The notes under the pieces: model-generated | Database searches by the model: none | What the model saw: only the letters and a program-made list of their open reading frames with translations | What the model was told of the DNA's origin: nothing | Made by a program: the position numbers and the translations under genes | Part shown: one piece after another, positions 5,125 through 36,372 of the stretch | How positions within the stretch are numbered: position 1 is the stretch's first letter | How the letters are laid out: each line of letters starts with the position of its first letter | From: Thioalkalivibrio sp. ALJT | GTDB lineage: Bacteria; Pseudomonadota; Gammaproteobacteria; Ectothiorhodospirales; Ectothiorhodospiraceae | DNA: 64,000 nucleotides | Direction: 5' to 3' | Assembly (NCBI RefSeq): GCF_000381825.1 | Contig: NZ_KB907121.1 | Coordinates: 392,001-456,000, forward strand

Positions 5125-5957
5125 AGATCGATCCAGCCGTTGAATACCGTGGTGGCCGGCCCGGTCAGCCAAACCGGCGCCTCGGCCTGTCCGCTCCAGC
5201 TTAGCACAAGGACCCCGCCCGGCAGCGAGACCTCGACGTCTGCGTCGACCAGCTCGCGTCGGCGCAGGATGGCCATCGCGGCCGCGGCACCGGAGCCGCA
5301 GGCCAGGGTCTCGCCGACCCCGCGCTCGAACACCCGCAGGTCGACGTGGGCGCGGTCGCGCACATGCGCGAAGCCGACATTGACCCGGCGCGGGAAGCTC
5401 TCGTGGCGTTCGATCACCGGGCCGATTTCCGCCACCGGGGCGCGCGCGACGTCGTCCACCAGGATCAGGGCATGCGGGTTGCCCATGGATACCGCGCCCA
5501 GCGTGATCGGGTGGCCCTCAACCTGCAGGGTATAGGCCGGGGCTTCGCGCTCGGCCCGCAGCGGGATGCGCTCGGGCGCGAATATCGGGGCGCCCATGTT
5601 GACGCGCACGCGCTCGTCGTCCTCGACATGCAGCACGATGCGCCCGCCCAGGGTCTCCACCGGGATCTCGCGGGCCGCGGTCAGGCCCTGCTCGCGCACG
5701 AAGCGGGCGAAGCAGCGCGCGCCGTTGCCGCACTGCTCCACCTCGGAGCCGTCGGCATTGAAGATGCGGTAGCGAAACAGGGCCTGCTCCGGATCGTCCG
5801 GGGCTTCCACCAGCAGGACCTGGTCGCAGCCGACGCCGAAGTGGCGATCCGCCAGATGACGCAGCGTCGCCTCGTCCAGGCGGACGGCCTGGCGCGTGCC
5901 GTCGATGACCACGAAGTCATTGCCCAGCCCGTGCATCTTGGTGAACTCCAGGCGCAT
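5121..5957 (-). CDS. dapF: Diaminopimelate epimerase
   Basis: A 278-residue PLP-independent epimerase converting LL- to meso-diaminopimelate for lysine and peptidoglycan synthesis. The N-terminus [19 protein letters not shown] is classical. The two catalytic cysteines lie in EQCGNGARC and TLACGSGA. The chosen ATG overlaps the upstream methyltransferase stop by one base (TGATG), indicating coupling. Longer upstream reading adds only non-conserved residues within the methyltransferase gene. lysA, two genes upstream, performs the next step of the pathway. Confidence 0.97.
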
Positions 5958-6631
5958 CAGGGCGTTTCCGGCAGGTGTCCGAAGATGATCATGTGCCGAT
6001 CCGAGGCGACATGTACGGTAAAGCCGTCGAGCCCGGCAGCGGCCAGTTGTTCGCGCACCTCGTCGGGTGTGAAGGCCGCGTGCAGGGAATGTTCGAAGTC
6101 GCGGCGGAGTACTTCCGGGTCGTCGGCTGCGTACTGTGCAACCAGGGCCTTGACCGCGGCCTCCGAGTCCGGCCGCCGCAGGTCCATCACGAACACGGCC
6201 GCGCCGGGCGTGCCATCGCGGCGGATGGCCTGCCACAGGGCCGCGGGTGTATGCAGATGATGCAGCAGGGAATTGCTGATGATCGTGGCATACGGGGCTC
6301 GCGGACCGCGCGCCTCGGGCAGGCAGCCTTCGCCCAGATTGACGCGCCGTGCGGCCGGGTGGCCGGCCATCAGGGCTTTGCCGGCGGCCAGCATCGCGGG
6401 CGCACCATCAAGGCCGTCCACCTCGCAGGCCGGATAGCGCGCGGCGAAGCGCAGGGAGACATCGCCCGGCCCGCAGCCGAGGTCGAGCACGGGGCCGCTG
6501 ACCGGGCCGGGGAAGGCCTCGGCAAAGGCGTCCACGAAACCTTCGTGCGGGGCGGCGAAGTCGGCCTCGGCATAGGCACGGGCCTGGTCCGGCTCCAGCA
6601 TCAGCTCCGGTTCCGGGCGGCGCGGGATCAC
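5957..6631 (-). CDS. Class I SAM-dependent methyltransferase, substrate unknown
   Basis: A 224-residue Rossmann methyltransferase. Motif I is [15 protein letters not shown] at about residue 50, followed by an acidic SAM-ribose position and [15 protein letters not shown], which resembles motif IV of the methyltransferase-11/25 group. No substrate can be assigned. It is wedged between lysA and dapF with ATGA and TGATG overlaps on either side, so it is cotranscribed with lysine/DAP genes. A CmoA-like or small-molecule role is possible, but nothing visible decides. Confidence 0.8.
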
Positions 6632-7917
6632 GGGTGCACGCTCCCGGGTGCAGCGTCGTCTTCGGCATCCCGGGGCAGCATGCTCTCGCGCATCATCAGG
6701 TGATCGATCTGCTCGCGGCGGTTGATGATCTGAAAGTGGTCGCCGTCGACCATGATCTCCGGCGGGCGCGGGCGCGAGTTGTAGTTGCCGGCCATCACAA
6801 AGCCGTAGGCCCCGGCCGAGCGCACGGCGAGCACGTCGCCCGCGGCCAGGGCCAGCTCGCGCTCGCGGCCGAGGAAGTCGCCGGTCTCGCAGACCGGGCC
6901 GACGATGTCGTAGGTGCGGGGCTCGGTGTCCTTGCGCTGCACGACCGGGATGATCTCCTGCCAGGCGCCGTACAGGGCCGGGCGCAGCAGGTCGTTCATT
7001 GCCCCGTCGACGATCGCGAAGTCGTGGGCCTCGGTGTGCTTCAGGTACTCCACCCGGGTCAGGAACACGCCGGCGTTGGCCGCGATCGCGCGCCCCGGCT
7101 CCAGCAGCACCTTCAGTGGGCGCTCGCCCATCACCTCGCGCAGCGCGCTGGCCCAGGCGTCCGGTTCCGGCGGGGTCTCGTCGCGGTAGCGCACGCCCAG
7201 TCCGCCGCCGACATCGATATGTTCGAGCTCGATGCCGTCCGCAGCCAGTCGGTCGACCAGCGCCAGCACGCGTTTCAGGGCATCGGTGAACGGATCGATC
7301 CGGGTCAGCTGCGAGCCGATGTGGAAATCGACGCCGGTGGCCTCCAGGTGCTGGCTGTCACGTACCCGGGCATACAGCGCCGGCGCCTCTTCGATAGCGA
7401 CGCCGAACTTGTTCTCGCGCAGGCCGGTGGCGATATAGGGATGGGTCTCGGCGTCGACGTCCGGATTCACGCGGATCGAGACCGGCGCGGTCACGCCCAT
7501 CTCGGCTGCAACGGCCTCGATGCGTTCCAGCTCCGGGCCGGACTCGACGTTGAAGCAGTGGATGCCGACCTCGAGTGCCCGGCGCATCTCGGCCGCGGTC
7601 TTGCCGACGCCGGAGAACACCACCTTCGCCGGGTCGCCGCCGGCGCGCAGCACGCGTTCCAGTTCGCCACCGGAGACGATGTCGAAGCCGGCGCCCAGGC
7701 GCGCCAGCACGTTCAGCACCCCCAGCGCGGAGTTGGCCTTCACCGCGAAGCAGACCTGGTGCGGCGTGCCGATCAGCGCCTCGCTGAAGGCGCGATAGTG
7801 ACGCTCCAGCGTGGCGCGCGAATACACGTAGGCCGGTGTGCCCACCAGCTGAGCCAGGTGGTCCAGCGCCACGCCTTCGCAGTAGAGGGTGTCGCCGTGA
7901 AAGTCGAAGTAGTCCAT
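6628..7917 (-). CDS. lysA: Diaminopimelate decarboxylase
   Basis: A 429-residue fold-type III PLP enzyme that decarboxylates meso-DAP to L-lysine. The PLP lysine is K60 in CFAVKANSALGVL. HIGSQL, the glycine-rich HIDVGGGLGVRY and the GPVCETGDFLG cysteine block at the dimer interface are all present. The C-terminus carries about 20 extra residues. Upstream lies lptM and downstream a methyltransferase, with ATGA overlap. Length and motifs are standard. Confidence 0.97.
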   Translation of the reverse strand: MDYFDFHGDTLYCEGVALDHLAQLVGTPAYVYSRATLERHYRAFSEALIGTPHQVCFAVKANSALGVLNVLARLGAGFDIVSGGELERVLRAGGDPAKVVFSGVGKTAAEMRRALEVGIHCFNVESGPELERIEAVAAEMGVTAPVSIRVNPDVDAETHPYIATGLRENKFGVAIEEAPALYARVRDSQHLEATGVDFHIGSQLTRIDPFTDALKRVLALVDRLAADGIELEHIDVGGGLGVRYRDETPPEPDAWASALREVMGERPLKVLLEPGRAIAANAGVFLTRVEYLKHTEAHDFAIVDGAMNDLLRPALYGAWQEIIPVVQRKDTEPRTYDIVGPVCETGDFLGRERELALAAGDVLAVRSAGAYGFVMAGNYNSRPRPPEIMVDGDHFQIINRREQIDHLMMRESMLPRDAEDDAAPGSVHP

Positions 7918-30316: not shown

Positions 30317-32011
30317 TCAGTAGCCGTTGGTCCGATCCTGCAGCGCTTCGCGGTCCTGGCGCAGTGGCAGCCGAATCCGTACCTGACCTCCGGGCCCCGG
30401 CCCGAGATCGATATCGCCGTCGTGGGCGCGGACCACCCGTAGCACGCTGGCCAGCCCCAGCCCGGTTCCGCCCCGCTTGGTGGTGAAGAACGGCTCGAAC
30501 ACCTGCTCGCGTTCGCTGGCGGCAAAACCGGGACCCTCGTCCAGGACCTCGATGCGGCAATCCCCGGCGCCTTCAGTGATTCGCACGCGGACGGGCCTGT
30601 GCGGCGCCGCCTGGGCGGCATTGTCGATCAGGTTGTCCAGCATCTGCTCGGTCAGGAGCGGATCCAGTTCCACCGGTGACAGCCCGGTACTCGTCTCCGG
30701 TTCCAGGATTACGGGGATCTGCCAGCGCCGTGACTGGCGCGCGGCCACCCCGGCCACCAGCGCATGCGGGTCCATCGGCTGGATCCGGGGCGTGACGGGC
30801 CGGCCGTATTCCAGCAATTCCTGGACCGTGCGGGAGCAGCGTTCGCAGTGGTGGTCGATCATGTTCACCATCTCCTGCTGCCGTTCGCCCAGCGTGCCTT
30901 CGCGCTGGAGGGTCGCGGTCACACTGCTGATCACGGTCAGGGGGTTGTTGATGTCGTGCGCGACGCGGGCGGCCACCCGCCCGATCGCGGACAGCTGCTC
31001 TTGGTGCTGCAGCCGGCGCTCGATATCGCGCAAGCGCGCCAGGTCGCGCGACATGTCATTGAACGCCAGCACTAGGCGGGAGAACTCGCCGGAGCCGGGG
31101 GGAAGCGGTGCCTGATATCCAAACTCCCCGCGGGCGATGCGCCCCAGATGCTCGACAAGGGCCCCGACCGGGCGCAGCTGGATGCGCAGCACCACCACCA
31201 GCGCAAAGGCCAGCAGCACCGCGGCAATCGCCAGGGTGATGGTGAGCAGGGTCTTGACCTCGTCCAGCGCGCGCGCGACCGTGTCCGGTGCCCTGACGTC
31301 CAGGGCCGCGCGCGACGGATCGCGGTCGTCGGTCAGTTCGATCCGGCGGGTATCGGGCCCCACCGAGACCCCGGCGGCGGGCTCGATTCGCGCGGAGTGG
31401 GTCTCGCGCAGGGATGTCACGAGTTCTTCGAGCGGCGTGGCCGTCACCAACCAGGCGATATTCACATTGTTGTGTTCGATCGCTGCCTGACCGACCAGCC
31501 AGAAGCTGCCGTCGGCGAACACTACGGCGGCGCCTTCCCGCTCCCCTTGCGGCGGGAATATGACCGAGTCCGACGGACGGCTGGAGGCGATCTCGCGCTG
31601 GTCACTGGCGGCCCACAGCGATACGCGTTGCAGTTCGAATGCCTCGGCCTGCCGGCTCACGGCTGCCGCAGGGTGGTGCTGTTCACCTTCCAGATAGAGG
31701 TGATAATAGGTGCTGTTGATCAGGTCGGAGTCGCGGGCCAGCAAGCCGGTCAGGCTGGACAACCGTCGCAGTTCGTCCTGGATGCGTCCGTCCACCTGAT
31801 CCGCCAGGCGGTCGAGTCGCTCCTGGTGCAGGTCGTCGAACTGGCGGCTGACGACCTGATCAATGCCCAGGAACAGGGCGCTGTGGATAATGGCGGTGAC
31901 CGTAATCACGCCCAGGATCACGCGGATCAGCAGGGATCTTCGGCGTCTTGGCGTTTGCGTCTGGCCGCGGTGGAGCGACCATCGTCCGGGAATTACCGCT
32001 TCCGACATCAT
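30317..32011 (-). CDS. Membrane sensor histidine kinase
   Basis: A 564-residue kinase. Helix 1 (about 27-50) and helix 2 (about 255-280) bracket a ~200-residue periplasmic sensor domain of no recognised family. HAMP follows, then a HisKA domain with phospho-acceptor His352 in ARVAHDINNPLT, of the NtrB-like type. The ATPase domain shows DNLIDNAAQAA (N box), DEGPGF and GGTGLGLASV. It lies downstream of the binding-protein gene on the same strand and diverges from an NtrC-type regulator, its probable partner. Confidence 0.9.
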   Translation of the reverse strand: MMSEAVIPGRWSLHRGQTQTPRRRRSLLIRVILGVITVTAIIHSALFLGIDQVVSRQFDDLHQERLDRLADQVDGRIQDELRRLSSLTGLLARDSDLINSTYYHLYLEGEQHHPAAAVSRQAEAFELQRVSLWAASDQREIASSRPSDSVIFPPQGEREGAAVVFADGSFWLVGQAAIEHNNVNIAWLVTATPLEELVTSLRETHSARIEPAAGVSVGPDTRRIELTDDRDPSRAALDVRAPDTVARALDEVKTLLTITLAIAAVLLAFALVVVLRIQLRPVGALVEHLGRIARGEFGYQAPLPPGSGEFSRLVLAFNDMSRDLARLRDIERRLQHQEQLSAIGRVAARVAHDINNPLTVISSVTATLQREGTLGERQQEMVNMIDHHCERCSRTVQELLEYGRPVTPRIQPMDPHALVAGVAARQSRRWQIPVILEPETSTGLSPVELDPLLTEQMLDNLIDNAAQAAPHRPVRVRITEGAGDCRIEVLDEGPGFAASEREQVFEPFFTTKRGGTGLGLASVLRVVRAHDGDIDLGPGPGGQVRIRLPLRQDREALQDRTNGY

Positions 32012-32094: not shown

Positions 32095-33051
32095 TCAGAT
32101 GGTTTGCGGCAGGCGATACCCCGCCTCCTGGGCGGAGACCGGAATCAGCCGGTGCGCCAAAACGGCCTGCCCGGCCGGGCTGTACAGGTAATCGAAGAAC
32201 GGGCGCATTACCGCCTCCTGCCACCGGTCGGATACCACCGTCAGCGGGCCGTGGAGGGGATACTCGCCCGCCTGAACCGTTGCCGCGGACGGCTCGATCC
32301 CGTCGATCTTCAGGGCGCGCAGTTCGCCCCGCTTGATGCGCTCGGCCGCGAACACCCAGCTTACAACGCCGATGGAGGACTCGAAGCGTGCCAGGGTGTC
32401 GGTCAGGTGTTCGTCGGTATCGATACTCATGCCGCGGGGGGACCACTGCTGGGCATTGTCGAACAGGACGTCGCGAACCGGTTCGCGGTAGTCCGGGCAG
32501 TGGTCGCGATAGAGCACGGCGATCGGCCGGTCTGGCCCGCCTACGTCCGACCAGCGGCGAACCCGGCCTGCCATCACGGCCTTCAAGTCGTCCAGCGCCA
32601 GCCCGTCGACTCCGACCTCGGGGTGGGTCACCACGACTTTGAGGTCCCGGGCGACCAGCAAGTGGAAGAAATCTCGCGCCCGGGTGTCCTCCACCGGGCA
32701 GCAGAGCCCTCCCAGATGGGCGGTCCGCTGCTGCACCGCCCCGATCCCGTCATCGCACCCGCCACCGTAGACCACAAACGGGCGTCCGGTGTCGTCGCGA
32801 TAGTGCTTGGCCAGTTCGCGGAACGCGCCGTAGGTCAGAAGGTGGGTACCCTGGTAGACCAGTTCGCCATTCGTACGATGGTCGACGGGCTGGGGCGCGC
32901 CCTGCGAGCCGGCGCAATTGCATCCGCCCTGAGCCAGTCCGGCCTGCCAGTCGGCGGTTTCGGGGCTCAGTGCGCGCGCGATGCCATGTCCCAGCAGCGG
33001 CCCGAGTACGGCTACGGCAGCCGCATTACGGATGAACACGCGACGATTCAT
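32095..33051 (-). CDS. Cysteine-rich PstS-like periplasmic binding protein, Tat-exported
   Basis: A 318-residue protein with a twin-arginine signal (NRRVFIRNAAAVAVLG) and a phosphate-binding-protein-like fold (type II PBP; DDLKAVMAGRVRRWSDVGG is the PstS pattern). It has six cysteines: 44 and 46 (CNC), 99, 117 and 118 (CC), and 185. These are unusual for PstS and suggest thiol or metal chemistry. No ABC transporter genes are near. It precedes the histidine kinase on the same strand, so I infer a ligand-presenting partner of the sensor. Confidence 0.78.
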   Translation of the reverse strand: MNRRVFIRNAAAVAVLGPLLGHGIARALSPETADWQAGLAQGGCNCAGSQGAPQPVDHRTNGELVYQGTHLLTYGAFRELAKHYRDDTGRPFVVYGGGCDDGIGAVQQRTAHLGGLCCPVEDTRARDFFHLLVARDLKVVVTHPEVGVDGLALDDLKAVMAGRVRRWSDVGGPDRPIAVLYRDHCPDYREPVRDVLFDNAQQWSPRGMSIDTDEHLTDTLARFESSIGVVSWVFAAERIKRGELRALKIDGIEPSAATVQAGEYPLHGPLTVVSDRWQEAVMRPFFDYLYSPAGQAVLAHRLIPVSAQEAGYRLPQTI

Positions 33052-33128: not shown

Positions 33129-34610
33129 ATGCCTGAATCCCCGTCGAATTCTTTCAAGGAATCAACGTCCGCAGCGCCTATCCATCATGGGGATGCGGAC
33201 AGGCCGATCCGGGTCCTCGTACTCGAGGACGAGCCTGATGTGGCCCGCATGCTGAGCTGGGCCATCAAGGACAGTGGGCGCTACGAGGTGACACTGAACA
33301 GCGACGCGTCTGCTCTAGAGGACTCGCTGGATGAGGTGGAGCCGGATCTGGTCCTGACCGATCTCATGATGCCGGGTCGCGATGGCTTCGACGTGATCCA
33401 GACCGTCAAGGAGCGCGACCCCGACCTCCCGGTGGTCGTCATCAGTGCCTATGCCAGTCTGGAAAATGCGGTCGAAGCCGTGCGCATGGGTGCCTTCGAC
33501 TTTCTCCCGAAACCGTTTCGGCCCGAGAACATCGAGCTGATGCTGGCAAAGGTGCAGCGCACCCATGACCTGCGACTGCGCGCCGATCGAGCCACCCGCT
33601 CGGCCCAGTCCTGCGACCCCTGCCTGAGCGCGTTGCGCGGTTCCAGCCCGATCATGCAGCGCCTGCGCGAATGGATCCTCAAGGTCCGCGACACCCAGGC
33701 CAATGTCGTGATCGAAGGCGAGAGCGGGACCGGCAAGGAACTCGTGGCGCAGGCGTTACATGCAGGTCGCGGGCCCTTCGTCGCGATTAATGTGGCCGCG
33801 ATTCCCCAGGACCTGGCCGAGGCAGAGTTGTTTGGCTATCGACGCGGCGCATTCACCGGGGCCGACCGCGATCATCCGGGGTTGCTGGTCGAGGCCTCCG
33901 GCGGCGTACTGTTCCTCGACGAAATCAACGCCATGCCCCTGGGCCTTCAGGCCAAGCTGTTGCGGACCCTCCAGAACCGCAGCGTGCGTGCGCTCGGCTG
34001 CACCGAGGATCGCCCACTGGATTTCCGGCTGGTTACCGCCACCAACCAGCCGCTGGAACAGGCGGTCGAGGAGGGCACCTTCCGGCGCGACCTGTTCCAC
34101 CGGATCAATGTCCTCGGCGTGCAGCTGCCGCCACTGCGGGATCGCACGGAAGACATCCCCGAGCTGGCCGAGAGCTTCGTGCAGCGCTATGCCCGCACCC
34201 ACGGACGACCGGTAGTGCGGCGCCTTGCCCCGGAGGCCATCAGCGCCCTGCTCGGCTATGAGTGGCCGGGCAATGTCCGGGAACTGGAGAACTTCATCGA
34301 GCAGGCCGTGATCCTGTGCCCCGACGGGCTGACCAGCCTGCCGCTGGACGTGTTTCCCGATGCCATTGGCGGCGGGGGCTGGCGGGCCGGCGCGGAGCCC
34401 GGTCTGCCCGACCCCGGCGATACGGGTGCAACGCTGGCCGCCGTCGAGCGCCGCTACATCGAGGCGGTGCTCCGCGAGACCGGCAACAACAAGGCCCAGG
34501 CCGCCCGGGTGCTGGGCATCGACTACAAGACCCTGCTGCGCAAGCTCGCCGCGTGGAAGGACGACCCGCGTGGCGCCTCCCCGGAGGATCCGTCCGAACC
34601 ACCTCTCTGA
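33129..34610 (+). CDS. NtrC-family sigma-54 response regulator
   Basis: A 493-residue activator with three domains. The receiver carries phospho-acceptor Asp78 in LTDLMMPG. The AAA+ domain has Walker A GESGTGKE (197-204) and the sigma-54-contacting GAFTGA loop (240-245). A C-terminal Fis-type helix-turn-helix contains NNKAQAARVLGIDYKTLLRKL. It is divergent from the binding protein/kinase pair, 77 nt away, and upstream of soxXA. A sigma-54 promoter and paired palindromes lie between it and soxX. It is therefore the likely activator of those genes. Confidence 0.93.
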   Translation: MPESPSNSFKESTSAAPIHHGDADRPIRVLVLEDEPDVARMLSWAIKDSGRYEVTLNSDASALEDSLDEVEPDLVLTDLMMPGRDGFDVIQTVKERDPDLPVVVISAYASLENAVEAVRMGAFDFLPKPFRPENIELMLAKVQRTHDLRLRADRATRSAQSCDPCLSALRGSSPIMQRLREWILKVRDTQANVVIEGESGTGKELVAQALHAGRGPFVAINVAAIPQDLAEAELFGYRRGAFTGADRDHPGLLVEASGGVLFLDEINAMPLGLQAKLLRTLQNRSVRALGCTEDRPLDFRLVTATNQPLEQAVEEGTFRRDLFHRINVLGVQLPPLRDRTEDIPELAESFVQRYARTHGRPVVRRLAPEAISALLGYEWPGNVRELENFIEQAVILCPDGLTSLPLDVFPDAIGGGGWRAGAEPGLPDPGDTGATLAAVERRYIEAVLRETGNNKAQAARVLGIDYKTLLRKLAAWKDDPRGASPEDPSEPPL

Positions 34611-34692
34611 AGTCGTGCGTCCGCAGGCTTTCGGGCCTGGAATCTCTTTCGTATGTAACGGGTGGACCACCGTACGAGTCGCTTCCGGCTTG

Positions 34693-34709
34693 TGGGGCAT
34701 TTTGCCCCA
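34693..34709 (+). promoter_or_regulatory. Upstream activator site 1 before soxX
   Basis: A perfect palindrome, TGGGGCATTTTGCCCCA. Its centre is about 120 bp upstream of the predicted soxXA transcription start, a usual place for an enhancer bound by an NtrC-type activator. Confidence 0.7.
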
Positions 34710-34725
34710 ATCGCTCGCCATGGGT

Positions 34726-34742
34726 GAGGGCCAAATGCCCCA
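34726..34742 (+). promoter_or_regulatory. Upstream activator site 2 before soxX
   Basis: GAGGGCCAAATGCCCCA matches the reverse complement of site 1 at 14 of 17 positions. The two centres are 33 bp apart, about three helical turns, so both sites face the same side. Confidence 0.65.
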
Positions 34743-34794
34743 GGCGCCCTCCGTGCCTTTCTCTTCCGCCCGCATCCTCACTGGACTTTATTGA

Positions 34795-34811
34795 TTGGCA
34801 CGCACCCTGCA
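34795..34811 (+). promoter_or_regulatory. Sigma-54 promoter of soxXA
   Basis: TTGGCACGCACCCTGCA fits the -24/-12 consensus TGGCACG-N4-TTGCA with a single change. It lies 79 nt before soxX and downstream of the two palindromes. Confidence 0.85.
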
Positions 34812-34890
34812 TCGGGGACGTTGGGTCGGGCGCCGCGTACGTGCGTCATGCGGGCCCAGATGAAACCAATAACAACAGGAGACACCCACG

Positions 34891-35445
34891 ATGATGAGGA
34901 GTGCGCTGTTTCTGGCCGGTGGTCTGACAATGCTGGCCGTGCCATTCGCCGTCGCCGATTCGCCGAACTCGACTGCGGGGCTTCCGGGCAATGCGCTGAT
35001 CGACGAGAGCCTGGACGTCAAGACCGCCTGGCCCTACCCGACCGAAGGCGCGGGGACCTATGAACTGCGGGCACACGGGCGAGATCTGCGCCAGTGGCTG
35101 AGCCTTAGCTATGAGGATCGACGCGGGATACCGGAGCCCACGGAGGTTGCCTTCGAGGGCCCGGTAAATGGCGACCCGGAGCGTGGCAAGGAGATCTTTA
35201 CGACCACGGCCGAAGGCAACTGTGTGGCTTGCCACTATGTCGAGGGGGTTGCGCAGACCGGAACCGTCGGCCCCTCGCTGGCCGATTACGCGGCTCGCGG
35301 CATGCCTGACGAATACACCTATCAGATGCTCTATGACGCGCGCGTCTTCTACGAGGGAACGCTGATGCCGCCGTTCGGTGCCTTCAACAATCTCACTGAA
35401 CAGGAAATCCACGACGTCATGGCGTATATGGCGACCCTCAAGTAA
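34891..35445 (+). CDS. soxX: Cytochrome c subunit SoxX
   Basis: A 184-residue periplasmic monohaem cytochrome. A signal peptide of about 22 residues ends AVA before DSPNS. The haem site is CVACH at 111-115, and the axial Met is Met159 in GTLMPPFGAF. SoxX and SoxA form the haem enzyme that links thiosulfate to SoxY. The N-terminal part is longer than in minimal SoxX. Two ATG codons in tandem are available, with AGGAG upstream. soxA follows by 21 nt. Confidence 0.93.
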   Translation: MMRSALFLAGGLTMLAVPFAVADSPNSTAGLPGNALIDESLDVKTAWPYPTEGAGTYELRAHGRDLRQWLSLSYEDRRGIPEPTEVAFEGPVNGDPERGKEIFTTTAEGNCVACHYVEGVAQTGTVGPSLADYAARGMPDEYTYQMLYDARVFYEGTLMPPFGAFNNLTEQEIHDVMAYMATLK

Positions 35446-35466: not shown

Positions 35467-36372
35467 ATGAAACAAAAGCAGATTGCGGTTACCGGCGCAG
35501 CAGCGCTCGCGCTCGCCCTCTCCGGGGCATGGATCGTTCAGGCCACCGCTGATGAAACCGTTTACCGCGAATACCAGCCCATGCTGGACTATGGCGATGA
35601 TCCGCACGTGTCGGACGACCATACCGGGACCTACAAGTACTGGAAGGATCGCGCAGCGCTCGATGCCGCCATGGTCGCCTCGCAAAGCGACCAGTGGAAG
35701 ACCAACTGGAAGTTCATGGACCCGCCTTTCGACCAGTCGCTGCACGGTGGGCACCTGGCCGAGGATCGTGGGGCTTTCCTGTTCGCGGAGCTCAATGACA
35801 ATGGCGCCTTCGCGGCCTGTCTGGGGGCGGAAGATGGTGACCTGACCGGGCTGCGCGCCACGCAATATCCGCAGTTCAACGAAGAGCTGGGCCGGATCAT
35901 GAACCTGGAGATGATGATCGAGCATTGCGCCGCCGAGAAGGGCAAGACGCTCAAGCACGGCAGTTACGACAACTCCGCGATCTCGGTGTATGTCGCCACC
36001 CACAGCAACGGCATGCCGATCGAAATCGACGTCACCGAAGGCGAACTCAAGAAGGCCTACAAGCGGGGGCAGGAGCGGTTCCATCTGCGGACTGGCCGCA
36101 TGAACCTGGCCTGCGCCAGCTGCCACACGACAACGGCCGGCGAGCGTCTGCGCGGTCAGGCACTGACCACTCATTACGGTGACGCGGCCCACTGGCCGAC
36201 CTATCGCACAAAGGACGAACTGCAGTCGCTGCAGGTGCGGTTTACCGAATGCAACCGAAACTCCGGAACCCAGCCGTTGCAGCTTGGTGCCGATGCCTAC
36301 AACGACATCGAAGTGTTTTTGAATGCGCTTAGCAGTGGCTACGAGGTCGCGGTACCGAGCGCGCGAGACTGA
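35467..36372 (+). CDS. soxA: L-cysteine S-thiosulfotransferase subunit SoxA
   Basis: A 301-residue periplasmic cytochrome that conjugates thiosulfate to the SoxY cysteine. The signal peptide is about 28 residues (ending VQATA). Only one haem motif is present, CASCH at 216-220. Cys262 in FTECNRN is the cysteine that becomes the persulfide haem ligand. The N-terminal haem of dihaem SoxA is missing: its region keeps two single cysteines but no CXXCH, so this is the monohaem type. It closes the soxXA operon. Confidence 0.93.
   Translation: MKQKQIAVTGAAALALALSGAWIVQATADETVYREYQPMLDYGDDPHVSDDHTGTYKYWKDRAALDAAMVASQSDQWKTNWKFMDPPFDQSLHGGHLAEDRGAFLFAELNDNGAFAACLGAEDGDLTGLRATQYPQFNEELGRIMNLEMMIEHCAAEKGKTLKHGSYDNSAISVYVATHSNGMPIEIDVTEGELKKAYKRGQERFHLRTGRMNLACASCHTTTAGERLRGQALTTHYGDAAHWPTYRTKDELQSLQVRFTECNRNSGTQPLQLGADAYNDIEVFLNALSSGYEVAVPSARD

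Follow-up and report, generated by a model that had tools for sequence, protein, structure and literature searches.

A predicted sigma-54 promoter with paired operators before an accessory soxXA pair, conserved with a kinase, a PstS-like periplasmic protein and an NtrC-type regulator

INTRODUCTION

Control of sox genes by sigma-54 has been described in Acidithiobacillus. The TspS/TspR system of A. caldus and A. thiooxidans is sigma-54 dependent, lies upstream of the sox-II cluster and has the UAS TGTCCCAAATGGGACA (PMC6335251), and a second account is in agreement (PMC12194929), both papers being used here in excerpt. Excerpts of other papers place a further sigma-54 regulator next to soxY in T. 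sulfidiphilus (PMC6382920) and, in Thioalkalivibrio, a sigma-54 regulator and a kinase beside a sulfur-oxidation operon, that of thiocyanate dehydrogenase (PMC5744179, PMC5328954). Together with TspS/TspR, these cases make sigma-54 control of sulfur genes a recurring theme. In the available extract of a further study, the PhnD-like domains of TtrS and ThsS are proposed to sense tetrathionate and thiosulfate (PMC5408782).

Here, we analyzed a window (the whole stretch of DNA under study, 64,000 nucleotides) in which soxX and soxA follow the gene of an NtrC-type regulator. A first-pass annotation had regarded sigma-54 control of these genes as unusual, a view that the Acidithiobacillus precedent contradicts. 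For this particular soxXA, no description of sigma-54 control was found among the listed matches from the open literature, as far as their extracts go, and excerpts of a temperature study of Thioalkalivibrio had nothing on expression of the locus. The locus shares with TspS/TspR (in A. caldus beside the sox-II genes soxXYZA-hyp-soxB) a kinase and a sigma-54 regulator next to sox genes, a palindromic operator upstream of a -24/-12 element and, in the two genomes examined, an adjacent gene for a periplasmic binding protein. It differs in having its own operator and recognition helix, two operator copies against the one seen there, and a PstS-like protein with soxXA alone in place of a PhnD-like protein with soxXYZA. 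ThsS/ThsR and TtrS/TtrR resemble it in that the recognition of a sulfur oxyanion on behalf of the kinase is proposed to rest with a periplasmic binding-protein fold (PMC5408782, in extract), but there the PhnD-like domain belongs to the kinase itself, whereas here the PstS-like protein is separate. The regulator and kinase of the thiocyanate dehydrogenase system lie beside a different operon, and that kinase is described with a GAF domain, which a Pfam scan did not find in the kinase studied here.

RESULTS

The locus and its accessory soxXA

The host is a sulfur bacterium of soda lakes and is closely related to Thioalkalivibrio sp. ALJ16. Its genome (G000; 2.66 Mb) encodes rpoN, and the window lies within contig C1. 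The gene order is kinase (-), PstS-like protein (-), NtrC-type regulator (+), soxX (+), soxA (+) and glutamine synthetase (-). Identity to the ALJ16 locus (G023) is 100% for SoxX, 99.7% for SoxA, 98.9% for the kinase, 97.9% for the periplasmic protein and 96.8% for the regulator. The features are as follows.

30317 to 32011, - strand: sensor histidine kinase with HAMP, HisKA and HATPase_c (Pfam); H-box ARVAHDINN, residue 348
32095 to 33051, - strand: orphan PstS-like periplasmic binding protein with GGGCDD, LCCP and HC motifs (PBP_like_2; fold)
33129 to 34610, + strand: NtrC-type response regulator, probable activator of soxXA (Pfam, motifs, clade)
34624 to 34639, + strand: terminator-like stem 3' of the regulator gene, tail GAATCTCTTT (pattern scan)
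34693 to 34709, no strand assigned: palindrome 1, TGGGGCATTTTGCCCCA, 0 mismatches, proposed enhancer site
34726 to 34742: palindrome 2, TGGGGCATTTGGCCCTC read on the - strand, 14/17 to palindrome 1
34795 to 34811, + strand: predicted sigma-54 -24/-12 promoter TTGGCACGCACCCTGCA (motif match, best score of the window)
34891 to 35445, + strand: accessory soxX, one CxxCH (TIGR04485, 79.1 bits, cut-off 61)
35467 to 36372, + strand: accessory soxA, one CxxCH, RFTEC near the C terminus (TIGR04484, 178.9 bits, cut-off 110)

SoxX and SoxA both score above the NCBIfam equivalog cut-offs; the single CxxCH of SoxA is at residue 216. Since G000 encodes another SoxA (contig C15) and SoxB on C4 and C2, the soxXA of the window is an accessory copy. 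For ALJ16, one extra soxX and one extra soxA have been counted, and the function of additional soxX copies was called unclear (PMC6382920, in excerpt). The accessory status, the conserved periplasmic protein and the beta-propeller targets in relatives described below had escaped the first reading of the window.

That reading had noted an adjacent NtrC-type regulator with an intact GAFTGA. We found the GAFTGA in an AAA+ domain with Walker A, together with a receiver carrying its Asp and an HTH_8 domain. The periplasmic sensor region of the kinase has no assigned family, its dCache_1 match being below threshold (E 0.056).

The predicted promoter and its paired palindromes

The first-pass annotation had proposed a -24/-12 promoter for soxXA, preceded by a palindrome and a 14/17 match to it, 33 bp apart, at about -120 and -85. 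These elements are all present. The starts of the two palindromes are 33 bp apart, and if the GC at 34809-34810 is the -12 element, +1 is predicted near 34821, which puts their centres (34701 and 34734) at about -120 and -87. Allowing up to 3 mismatches, palindrome 1 has three matches in the window, all at these two places and one of them being palindrome 1 itself on the - strand, against a mean of 0.13 in shuffled windows, none of 100 of which reached three. It is the sole place in the window to score 12/12, 10/12 being reached by nine places.

The promoter match has GG and GC with 10 bases between them and tops both strands of the window by weighted score (16/17; the next score, 14, occurs at three places). 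Taken alone it is weak evidence, near chance: at least one relaxed match (at most 1 mismatch) occurs in 32 of 100 shuffles, with 0.36 expected per window.

A relaxed paired-site pattern, which misses some likely pairs in relatives, occurs once in G000, at this locus. Upstream of the other SoxA gene and both SoxB genes (approximate positions), the palindrome scores at most 8/12 and the -24/-12 element at most 13/17. We rejected the possibility that the palindrome is a dispersed repeat: at up to 3 mismatches, G000 contains 4 matches on the forward strand, 1 of which belongs to this locus, and 5 on the reverse strand, 2 of which do, a control with the reversed pattern giving 2 and 3. One off-locus match, at G000:C12:31071-31087, has 2 mismatches. 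A second terminator-like stem (34742-34758) lies between palindrome 2 and the promoter and could shield soxXA against read-through.

The module and its footprint in relatives

The periplasmic protein is a better marker of the module than SoxX. A SoxX search of 58 genomes gave 43 matches at E≤0.001, only five of them below 1e-60, and a search for the periplasmic protein in 47 genomes of the family gave 12 at E≤0.001, nine of which were at E≤1.6e-65. With a profile, 38 of 369 genomes of the class matched at E≤1e-30, and only G000, G023, G170 and G253 (the latter two from other families) exceeded 360 bits, the next-best score being 140. A collection of named genomes yielded 11 loci, eight at ≥40% identity: Thioalkalivibrio ALJ16, ALJ7 and ALJ24, T. 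denitrificans ALJD, T. sulfidiphilus ALJ17, Kmv18, a Burkholderiales and STE_6. These eight, with G000, G012, G034, G170 and G253, make up the 13 places compared.

Kinase, periplasmic protein and regulator occur together on one contig in 11 of the 13, and the two exceptions arise because contig ends break them. The T. denitrificans trio is split over two contigs, the Burkholderiales assembly has no regulator on the stretch available, which ends just past the kinase, and the STE_6 kinase is cut by a contig end. The kinase, the orphan PstS-like protein and the NtrC-type activator form a conserved trio.

The first-pass annotation had suggested looking for the palindrome in relatives. We scored a region as passing if it had two sites 32 to 34 bp apart (on a 12-position consensus derived from the window site, one at ≥10 and the other at ≥8), followed by a -24/-12 element at ≥13/17. 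Ten of 13 target regions beside the regulator pass: soxX in the window, ALJ16, ALJ7, T. denitrificans, ALJ17, Kmv18 and G170, soxA in STE_6, and a beta-propeller gene in ALJ24 and G012. ALJ16 and ALJ7 are near relatives, and setting both aside leaves eight of the ten. The distance from second site to promoter varies from 39 to 110 bp. The cobW region of ALJ17 has a site pair without a -24/-12 element scoring 13, and G253 and G034 have neither a pair by this consensus nor the following -24/-12 element; -24/-12-like sites and TATGG-type half-sites were noted post hoc in the last two. As a control, 4555 overlapping 450-bp tiles from 22 loci gave 21 with a pair and three full passes, two of which overlap one place in ALJ7, the third (L131) not being at a known target; 2000 shuffles of the window region gave six pairs and no full pass.

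The relaxed pair pattern by itself is not enriched, since it gave 18 places (in 15 of the 47 family genomes) against 29 for the reversed control. What gives it weight is the location of these places, since eight of them coincide with module targets, in seven genomes. It misses the pairs of the ALJ7 beta-propeller gene and of STE_6.

Targets of the switch

Of the 12 places with a regulator, 10 have sox genes next to it, and in the other two, ALJ24 and G012, the beta-propeller gene takes their place. ALJ7 has both soxXA and the beta-propeller gene, each with its own sites. Its beta-propeller gene shares 72% identity with the G012 gene that stands under such sites. It lies 3' of the kinase gene in convergent orientation and is preceded by a second palindrome pair with 33-bp spacing and a -24/-12 element (L057:13553-13660, - strand). 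This place, hit unplanned among the control tiles, is likely a further target. In T. denitrificans, the beta-propeller gene is directly 3' of soxA, and searches of G000 and ALJ16 gave no match to it at E≤0.001.

ALJ17 has a second pair, 34 bp apart and with only a weak -24/-12 element (L126, about 5570-5690, - strand), before genes for a CobW-type GTPase and a beta-propeller protein 33 to 36% identical to that of G012. In G253 (L131:8809-11312), the regulator is divergent from an apparent soxY-soxZ-soxA-soxX (soxY and soxZ assigned by eye), with a -24/-12-like site, CTGGCCCGGGGCATGCA. We dropped the identification of the beta-propeller protein as thiocyanate dehydrogenase, none of its six PDB matches being so named in a PDB copy that may lack one.

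A periplasmic protein with cysteines in its ligand loops

The serine, threonine and arginine loops of PstS bind phosphate. The periplasmic protein resembles PstS proteins in fold and overall alignment, and they are its best structural matches (predicted structure with mean pLDDT 81.3, from 7 sequences). It departs from them in scoring 66.4 bits with the curated PstS-family model, far under the cut-off of 206.6, in the lack of transporter genes in a scan of eight neighbouring ORFs, and in carrying cysteines at the aligned ligand-loop positions. In alignment to solved PstS chains, Cys99 and Cys117 correspond to Ser, Cys118 to Arg and Cys185 to Gly. With such a score and such loops, we dropped its identity as an ordinary phosphate receptor. 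By eye, its N terminus has a Tat-like RR motif.

The GGGCDD, LCCP and HC motifs are invariant in all 12 module homologues. Loop cysteines as such are not unique to the module, because the 28 outgroup proteins compared have the first Cys of LCC and a further one in the first loop (GCG-type); Cys99, Cys118 and Cys185 are, in this comparison, limited to module proteins. The wider PstS-like family of the class has another cysteine pair (GCG-type loop 1, CR loop 3; L072-L097). The natural reading of cysteines in these loops is that phosphate would not be the ligand and that the thiols matter. The four invariant cysteines suggest a thiol-based sensor, which would probably be an accessory sensor for the kinase, and a reactive or reduced sulfur compound or a soft metal would suit as its ligand.

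Alternative explanations and the relation to TspS/TspR

We prefer the reading that the accessory soxXA would have a sigma-54 promoter, driven by the adjacent NtrC-type regulator at the paired palindromes, and put its probability at about 0.85.

The alternative that survives best is that the system is TspS/TspR itself, the regulator being an ortholog of the Acidithiobacillus one whose operator has drifted. The TspR operator occurs, at up to 1 mismatch, in 14 of 369 genomes of the class, and had no match at this threshold in G000. It is exact in two, G072 and G217, which from their gene order are probably Acidithiobacillus: a kinase and a regulator precede soxXYZA-hyp-soxB, with -24/-12 sites CTGGCACGCGAAATGCA and TTGGCACAAAACATGCT found by eye. 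As a check on the method, both show the regulator, then the operator and -24/-12 element, before soxXYZA. A gene for a PhnD-like periplasmic protein directly precedes their TspS-type kinase (L169:5390-6277; L170, about 5917-6800); the L169 protein matches Phosphonate-bd at 154 bits, and the excerpts of the TspS/TspR papers make no mention of it (PMC6335251, PMC12194929). The logic of kinase, sigma-54 regulator, operator, -24/-12 element and sox genes is thus common to both systems, as is the adjacent binding-protein gene.

We built a tree of 39 regulators, 10 from the module, 2 TspR-type and 27 others from G000, G072 and G170. Of the 30 sigma-54 activator loci fetched for it, L178 and L182 were dropped (failed P-loop pattern). 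The T. denitrificans regulator, which is partial, and that of ALJ16, which is nearly identical, were left out. Module regulators form one clade (100/99), with G253, G034 and STE_6 as a side branch, and TspR-type regulators another (100/100). The clades are not neighbours, the nearest row outside the module being another G000 regulator (80/89), although constraining both as one clade was not rejected (AU p 0.089). The regulators are 39 to 40% identical, and the operators (TGGGGC-N5-GCCCCA against the TspR sequence) and binding-protein families (PstS-like against PhnD-like) also differ. The recognition helix IDYKTLLRKL, common to all 10 module regulators compared, is ISRKQLRTKM in the TspR type, a difference that fits that of the operators. 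GAFTGA is exact in nine of these 10, the G170 regulator matching neither the GAFTGA pattern nor one Walker A pattern. On this balance we consider identity with TspS/TspR unlikely. Binding proteins encoded separately next to sox-linked kinases may have more than one origin.

We regard as improbable that the promoter depends on sigma-54 with the palindromes bound by another enhancer-binding protein of the cell. G000 has candidates, with 17 PF00158 matches (13 with E below 1e-48), but the sites travel with the module regulator, preceding in ALJ24 and G012 another gene that adjoins it, and the recognition helix is identical in the 10 module regulators compared. Least probable is that the palindromes are hairpins or a terminator, with transcription of soxXA either starting at an overlooked sigma-70 promoter or continuing from the regulator gene by read-through, an idea that draws on the two terminator-like stems in 34550-34950 (0.3 expected, pattern scan) and on the capacity of the region to fold as RNA, but which we rejected: neither palindrome is among the terminator-like hits, a pattern scan of 34550-34950 found no sigma-70-like site, the predicted fold does not stand out (z -1.05; equalled by 32 of 200 shuffles), and the 32- to 34-bp spacing followed by a -24/-12 element recurs in relatives.

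DISCUSSION

Sigma-54 control of the accessory soxXA by the adjacent regulator, as the first-pass annotation proposed, is strongly supported by the layout in relatives; its view that such control is unusual did not stand, given TspS/TspR. The sequence itself shows the sites and their spacing, the match to the promoter, the intact motifs, the linkage of the genes and their conservation, and for a case made from sequence the sigma-54 promoter with paired operators is well supported. We suggest that the kinase, probably informed by the PstS-like protein encoded between it and the regulator, would phosphorylate the latter. The regulator would then bind the two 17-bp palindromes, at about -120 and -87 relative to the start, as an enhancer. 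Their 33-bp spacing is about three turns and would place both on one face of the DNA, and the AAA+ ring of the regulator would remodel the sigma-54 polymerase held at 34795-34811.

What the system senses can be addressed by a tentative proposal, against which we think the odds lean somewhat. The periplasmic protein could have exchanged its phosphate loops for a set of four cysteines, with which it would capture, or react with, reduced sulfur species. Through the kinase, the signal would reach a distinct sigma-54 activator and switch on the accessory SoxXA together with a beta-propeller protein of the periplasm. Relatives have one of these or both, and they could be parts of one unrecognised periplasmic sulfur-oxidation pathway. 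On this view, the locus would encode a thiol-based sensor with three components, for sulfur or else for a soft metal.

The mode of control has a precedent, and what is new is the distinct operator and regulator clade, as well as the regulon of accessory soxXA and beta-propeller gene and the periplasmic partner with cysteine loops. The sensing of external reduced sulfur by sulfur oxidisers has been called poorly understood (PMC11582611, in excerpt). The locus offers a self-contained unit of a kinase, a separate periplasmic protein with a conserved cysteine set, an activator and a defined operator, and genome sequences suffice to read off the targets of that operator. It gives the extra soxXA copies, whose role was called unclear (PMC6382920, in excerpt), a regulatory context, and it connects them with a beta-propeller protein without assigned function.
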